64,000 nt of DNA from Dacryopinax spathularia. Taxonomy: Eukaryota; Basidiomycota; Dacrymycetes; Dacrymycetales; Dacrymycetaceae. This document shows positions 27,742 to 28,350 of the stretch, one piece after another. The stretch is from the NCBI GenBank assembly GCA_037974965.1, contig JBBPFI010000004.1:806001-870000 (forward strand), read 5' to 3'. Position numbers and translations under genes: made by a program. Positions within the stretch are counted from its first letter, which is position 1. Each line of letters starts with the position of its first letter. The notes below the pieces were generated by a model. The model was not told where the DNA came from and searched no databases. It saw only the letters and a program-made list of their open reading frames with translations.

Positions 27742-28350
27742 TGAATCCAGGAGCAAAGCCCTCGGATGCCATCGCTCCGAAGTTCAGAACCTCGGATGCC
27801 ATTCGGTAGTTGCATGTTCCTTATCTGCCATTGGGATGCGTTATGTCTCATTGTTATGGTCAATATGCCCGTTCAAAGGTCGTGTCCTAACAACTATCCC
27901 TTACTGCAGCCATGATCGCTGTCTTTCTGGGCCAGGAATTGGGCAAAGAGGTAGTTAATTGATTATTTTTAAAAGCCAATATGCTTTCTTCAGAAAAATC
28001 AAGCACTTTGATTTGCCTACCCTTGGTCTTGTATTTCTGTTTTGGCCTTAATTTAATTTTTTAAACATCATAAAATCAAAATTAGTTTTTTTTTAAAAAA
28101 AAAATATGTCAAGCAAGTATAAAATTACTTGCACCTGCTGATTCCACTTCAAGTATCGATCACACTATCAGACTTATTTGTTTTAATCAATAAATACATT
28201 TCACAATCATAAGATAACTACCATAAGCAGGCGATAACATGCGGGCCATGTGGGGCCCGATGGCAGGATAGGTACATGTGCCAGTGCAATGGCAGAACAC
28301 CACATTACCGCGTTCAGCAATGGCATCCGAGGGCTTTGCTCTGAATCCAG
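27742..28350. mobile_element. Element A: non-autonomous TIR transposon, MULE-like, with target-site duplication
   Basis: The element spans 27751-28341 (591 bp). Its ends are a perfect 22-bp inverted repeat beginning GAGCAAAGCCCTCGGATG (27751-27772 and 28320-28341). The inverted similarity continues imperfectly for about 100 bp; for example, left CATGTTCCTTATCTGCCAT corresponds to right CATGTACCTATCCTGCCAT. It is flanked by the 9-bp direct repeat TGAATCCAG at 27742-27750 and 28342-28350, a target-site duplication. The interior from about 27955 to 28210 is very AT-rich, includes a T9A10 run, and codes for nothing recognisable. A 9-bp duplication with long terminal repeats is typical of Mutator-like elements; family assignment is inference. 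The sub-motif CTCGGATGCCAT occurs twice in the left end. Confidence 0.85.

Follow-up and report, generated by a model that had tools for sequence, protein, structure and literature searches.

The locus

The DNA analysed here is a stretch of 64 kb (the window), which carries a probable amino acid permease gene on the minus strand and, upstream of the permease ATG, a TIR-bounded insertion of 591 bp, Element A (Table 1). The TIRs of Element A are perfect over their outermost 22 bp, show 96% complementarity across 26 nt, and give the element termini of the form GAGC...GCTC. The 9-bp target-site duplication (TSD) TGAATCCAG lies directly outside them on each side. As the original prediction held, the perfect ends and the TSD define the bounds of the insertion to the base. 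It also described about 100 bp of imperfect inverted similarity beyond the ends; such similarity is present, but it does not form a continuous TIR, and past 26 bp consists mainly of a motif repeated at a spacing of ~30 bp, together with one weak 24-nt inverted pair (75%) deeper in the element (27950-27973 and 28199-28222).

The interior is AT-rich, again as claimed, with a GC of 0.327, whereas the two 100-bp ends reach 0.555 and the window as a whole 0.548. The longest stop-to-stop frame of Element A has 68 codons. A comparison of dinucleotide ratios with the window, which is not a formal test, reveals no RIP signature in Element A: CpA+TpG over ApC+GpT is 1.75, compared with a window value of 1.18, and the element and the window have the same TpA/ApT, 0.67.

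The permease, the gene nearest to Element A, is recognised by a match to AA_permease_2 (PF13520; E 4.4e-16) in the minus-strand frame 25857-26252. Frames 25379-25852 and 27169-27756 have no Pfam match and, since the latter holds the ATG, the span given for the gene is approximate; we infer that the ATG frame and the AA_permease_2 frame are one gene. The first ATG of the permease frame, at 27675 (minus), is 76 positions from the edge of Element A, the distance originally given, with 75 bp between, and the in-frame stop upstream of this ATG falls inside the element. By this positional argument, Element A may have replaced the proximal promoter or may supply a leader.

Table 1. Features of Element A, its neighbouring gene, and a second MITE in the window.
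Feature	Position	Strand	Basis
Gene for a probable amino acid permease (span approximate)	25379..27675	-	PF13520 match and ATG; span inferred
Left TSD copy, TGAATCCAG	27742..27750		Sequence; word repeated at 28342-28350
Element A, non-autonomous MULE-type MITE, 591 bp	27751..28341	+	Ends, TSD, copies, 68-codon longest frame
Left TIR, outer 22 bp perfect	27751..27776	+	Inverted-repeat comparison, genome-wide end pattern
Left iteron 1, TCGGATGCCAT	27762..27772	+	Sequence repeat
Left iteron 2, TCGGATGCCAT, 30 bp from iteron 1	27792..27802	+	Sequence repeat
Left iteron 3, a degenerate copy (TTATCTGCCAT) 29 bp from iteron 2	27821..27831	+	Sequence, lag 29
Right iteron 3, a degenerate copy (...TCCTGCCAT) 29 bp from iteron 2	28260..28270	-	Sequence, lag 29
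Right iteron 2, a degenerate copy (...TCTGCCAT) 31 bp from iteron 1	28289..28299	-	Sequence, lag 31
Right TIR	28316..28341	-	Inverted-repeat comparison
Right iteron 1, TCGGATGCCAT	28320..28330	-	Sequence repeat
Right TSD copy, TGAATCCAG	28342..28350		Sequence
Element B, 526-bp MITE, same architecture as Element A	44378..44903	+	TSD, iterons, copies

Copies of Element A in the genome

The search for copies covered the genome of the window itself (29.2 Mb in 24 contigs). The size and gene content of this genome point to a fungus; a search for 5.8S rRNA gave no match. The original prediction had looked to copies with different duplications as the proof of mobility, and to a lack of any second copy as evidence against it. 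Four complete copies and one truncated copy are present elsewhere: 587 bp on C7, 555 bp on C4 (C4b), 1234 bp on C6, 541 bp on C11, and, also on C4, a remnant of 184 bp with one end left. The TSDs of all five complete copies, Element A included, are perfect and each is a different sequence (TGAATCCAG, CTCTTGGCAC, TAAGTTACGG, GCGAATTCGA, GCTATAAACG), with a length of 9 bp for the window copy and 10 bp for the other four. Thus, the Element A family is a real, mobile family, and in being short and non-coding, with TIRs, TSDs, and several dispersed copies, Element A is a MITE. Searched for with as many as 3 mismatches, the 22-bp end has 11 matches in the genome (control, 0), two from each complete copy and one from the truncated copy. 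Every match is thus an end of the Element A family, which rules out chance.

Pairwise identity among the copies runs from 98.4% (C7 versus C4b) down to 70.1% (C4b versus C11), indicating copies of differing age; between the copies in the window and on C7 it is 95.7%. When Element A is compared with the most divergent complete copies (C6 and C11), counting gaps as mismatches, identity is 0.98 at the tips and 0.35-0.38 in the middle, as expected if movement needs only the ends. At the left end of C4b, one 30-bp unit is missing between iterons 1 and 2; despite this loss, C4b has a perfect 10-bp TSD and retains its 98.4% identity to C7.

Elements of the CACTA/EnSpm type have CACTA/CACTG termini and a 3-bp TSD. 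Element A does not fit this group, given its GAGC...GCTC termini and the 9-10-bp TSDs of its family. The C6 copy (C6:734949-736182) harbours a nested insert of 690 bp that resembles a non-autonomous CACTA element: its ends read CACTAG...CTAGTG, it is accompanied by a 3-bp duplication (CAT), and CACTGA/TCAGTG motifs recur in it.

Resident MULEs and their ends

At least 16 loci in the genome encode a MULE transposase domain. In ten of these (L024-L031, L033, and L034; spans of 1.9-2.6 kb), both TIRs are present and the TSDs, of 9-10 bp, are perfect; they are intact with respect to their ends, the recovered frames of L026 (391 aa) and L033 (279 aa) being shortened relative to the 542-609 aa of the other eight. 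For L032 and L038, the limited ranges scanned yielded neither TIRs nor TSDs, and for L035-L037 and L039 the analysis consisted solely of self-comparison for inverted repeats and a search for the end of Element A. A Pfam scan of eight transposases detects the MULE domain PF10551 in all eight, always over the curated cut-off, SWIM in all eight (over the cut-off in seven), and DBD_Tnp_Mut in seven (over the cut-off in two). Between MULE families, the transposases are ~40-60% identical.

The first 24 bp of Element A, aligned ungapped and in register, match the ends of L027 at 16 positions and those of L028 and L029 at 17 each, scores that none of 10,000 dinucleotide shuffles equals. Weaker matches in register are seen with L024 (13/24), L030 (11/24), and L033 (13/24), for which 40, 164, and 43 shuffles per 10,000, respectively, are equally good. 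The core shared by Element A and the MULE ends is (T)CGGATGCC.

As a second control, all 127,954 24-mers on both strands of the window were scored against six MULE families. By the six-family sum, the left end of Element A (87) ranks second and the right end (84) third. The first rank (92) lies outside Element A, at 13142 on the minus strand, and a 24-mer at 11519, also outside the element, matches L027 at 19/24. Thus, a match this good occurs about once per window elsewhere; that of Element A is telling because it coincides precisely with the two ends of a mobile element whose TSD has the same length. The 24-mer at 13142 reads GAGGAAACTGGTCGGATGCCGACC and is either a chance match or the remnant of a MULE end.

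The TSDs of the Element A family (9 bp here, 10 bp in the others) lie within the 8-11 bp expected of MULEs and within the 9-11 bp given for the Mutator superfamily in the portion of PMC3310237 at hand. Its ends are held in common with PF10551-encoding elements, being similar in register and not identical. Long TIRs, often >100 bp, are frequent among MULEs without being required, and Element A has instead a 26-bp TIR followed by repeated motifs. Since long TIRs are not universal, the length given in the accessible part of PMC6446971 being 14-500 bp and that of the Mutyl TIRs 22 bp, a short TIR is not taken to exclude a MULE. The dispersed copies with different 9-10-bp TSDs and the ends in register with resident Mutator-transposase elements together bear out the earlier description of Element A as a MULE-like MITE.

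Iterons and end layout

Each end of Element A contains three iterons spaced by ~30 bp, a layout common to most of the resident MULE and MITE ends examined. In a self-match scan of 28 ends from 14 elements, at lags of 14-55, the best lag is 27-32 bp in 24 ends; the exceptions are one L027 end (18), both L029 ends (14, tied with 31), and one L063 end (18, tied with 30). At lags 28, 30, and 31, respectively, 11, 11, and 10 of 22 ends contain a stretch of 12 bases with 9 or more matches, versus 1.1-1.6% of shuffled ends. The ends counted are not independent, since an element has two copies of its end and the families are related, and some elements were chosen through the motif itself. For the eight MULEs, which were chosen by transposase domain, the best lag is ~30 bp in 13 of 16 ends.

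Genome-wide, the pattern CGGATGCC-N17-25-CGGATGCC has 33 matches (control, 0), counted as pattern matches, of which four are Element A copies. A triple GATGCC at similar spacing gives 21 matches (control, 1), one of which, on C15, resembles a simple repeat.

Transposase similarity and end similarity are correlated across eight families (Mantel r 0.61, with L033 represented by a partial protein); 268 of 20,000 permutations give a value as high. Such a correlation is expected were the iterons binding sites of the transposase. The spacing of 28-31 bp corresponds to about three helical turns.

Origin of Element A

With multiple copies, TSDs, a common end architecture, and transposase genes all observed directly in the genome, Element A is very probably a non-autonomous MITE of the Mutator/MULE type that is moved in trans by a compact MULE of the L027/L028/L029 group or by a close relative now absent. 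Element A would carry the end sequences alone, and a resident MULE transposase would supply movement in trans. The N-terminal DNA-binding domain of the transposase may dock on the three ~30-bp-spaced iterons of each end, the DDE domain would then cut adjacent to the GAG... termini, and insertion would duplicate 9-10 bp of the target. Element A may still be active.

The mover itself is less sharply defined because no transposase-coding element bearing the 22-bp end of Element A was found in the assembly, the end pattern (up to 3 mismatches) returning just the 11 MITE ends. Presumably, the mover is either a transposase of the L027/L028/L029 type that acts across families or a relative now absent. 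BLAST of the interior of Element A against the 16 MULE loci (E up to 1) gives short matches only and no shared interior, of which the best are a poly-A/T stretch in L034 (E 4e-4) and the end core in L028 (E 0.005). Derivation of the interior by deletion of an autonomous parent, a frequent though not required trait of MITEs, is therefore not apparent with respect to these loci.

The site beside the permease is an insertion site at which a regulatory effect is possible, and Element A might have been co-opted as the permease promoter or 5' leader and retained for that role. Its start 76 bp from the permease ATG agrees with such a role, as does the C11 copy, from whose end the first ATG of a GST_N-domain frame lies 123 bp downstream (L005 2042-2164). 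GST_N is the one Pfam match among the 10 flanking frames, a selection, scanned for the other copies; none of the seven selected frames flanking C7, C4b, and C6, that is, three of the five complete copies, has a match. No preference for gene proximity is claimed, since one frame in ten is too little. Promoter MITEs of fungi can, moreover, be neutral: in Fusarium, a MITE was deleted from two promoters and expression was unchanged, according to the available part of PMC3599309. Retention of Element A for a promoter role thus appears unlikely.

It is far less probable that Element A belongs to another superfamily with 9-10-bp duplications and that its likeness to MULE ends is convergent. Such an origin would accommodate the lack of an autonomous partner with identical ends in the assembly, and isolated 24-mers of the window do equal the match of Element A to a MULE end. 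Convergence would, however, have to account for three MULE families being matched in register at both termini, with none of 10,000 shuffles as good, for a TSD length like that of the ten MULEs with TSDs, and for the three-iteron layout that Element A and the MULEs have in common. The reading of Element A as a host inverted repeat or an assembly coincidence, and hence no transposon, is refuted by copies dispersed over four contigs with distinct TSDs.

Comparison with known systems

The resident MULEs closest to Element A, L027, L028, and L029, share its start register, the (T)CGGATGCC-type core, the ~30-bp repeats, and a 9-10-bp TSD, but they are ~2 kb in length and encode a transposase, and their 22-bp termini are not identical to its own. 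Among fungal Mutator-like elements, Hop of Fusarium oxysporum and Mutyl of Yarrowia lipolytica have a 9-bp TSD, as does Element A, and the 22-bp imperfect TIRs of Mutyl recall its 22-bp ends (PMC5014426, in part). Unlike Element A, both are autonomous; Hop has perfect TIRs of 99 bp, and full-length Mutyl is 7,413 bp. The portion of that paper at hand contains no mention of iteron structure in Hop or Mutyl.

Muta1 of Aedes aegypti is the nearest precedent found for MULE ends built of repeats. The available text of PMC5225508 describes such ends, many non-autonomous derivatives, and an 8-9-bp TSD; the repeat of Muta1 is a 12-bp unit present nine times with 3-4-bp spacers in 145-bp TIRs, in contrast to the three iterons spaced by 28-31 bp here. 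Muta1 was also studied with an assay in yeast (PMC5225508). The mimp elements of Fusarium oxysporum are likewise fungal MITEs located upstream of genes, but they are miniature forms of Impala, of the Tc1 group, and not MULEs (PMC3599309, same portion). In maize MuDR/Mu, the TIR holds a sequence of ~32 bp bound by MURA (PMC3310237), whereas the TIRs as a whole are ~215 bp (PMC2774946) versus 26 bp in Element A. The accessible parts of these two maize papers contain no description of a three-iteron rule in MuDR/Mu, and none for MULE ends in general was found in the open-access literature searched, as far as its text was at hand.

Other MITE families and a proposed shared end grammar

Element B, also in the window, is flanked by the 10-bp TSD ACCTGCTTGC (44368-44377 and 44904-44913). 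Its first 24 bp match MULE L029 at 17 positions, its iteron core, TTGCTCCGTCG, is unlike that of Element A, and it is found at ~10 places in the genome, itself counted. Two further groups have closer MULE matches than Element A has. The ends of the L056-L062-type MITEs match those of L028 at 80-84% identity over 82-85 bp in the best cases, and L056, L059, and L061 have perfect 10-bp TSDs. L063 (C10:7880-8400) is a 479-bp MITE with a 9-bp TSD whose outer ends are held in common with MULE L027, and matches to its family are also present on C1, C7, C9, and C17. The triple-iteron word of L063 is nearly unchanged at five places in the genome, which suggests, from sequence conservation, that this family has moved recently.

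The genome thus contains ten end-intact MULEs and at least four MITE groups (Element A, Element B, the L056/L061 type, and the L063 type). As a MITE, Element A is ordinary in kind, and what deserves attention is the three-iteron end grammar that it shares. We tentatively propose, as a possibility that falls short of an even chance, that the ends of the resident MULEs all begin in a GAG-like manner, carry the (T)CGGATGCC-type core at one constant offset, and have three iterons spaced by 28-31 bp, that MITEs exploit this grammar such that one transposase could mobilise several MITE families, Element A included, and that the ends co-evolve with the DNA-binding domain. If so, ends co-evolving with that domain would constitute a natural series of protein-DNA recognition within one genome. 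In any case, the genome offers a compact system for end recognition in the Mutator family and for the question of whether MITEs can be moved across families.

Two minor observations concern other repeats. At L058 (C8) and L060 (C1), one L028-type MITE recurs together with its near flanks in opposite orientation, and neither copy has a TSD within one mismatch; the pair represents either a segmental duplication or an assembly duplicate. Within the window, a segment of 1072 bp (54780-55851) has 33-nt inverted ends of 82% (GCGCCC...) but lacks a clear duplication at either edge.
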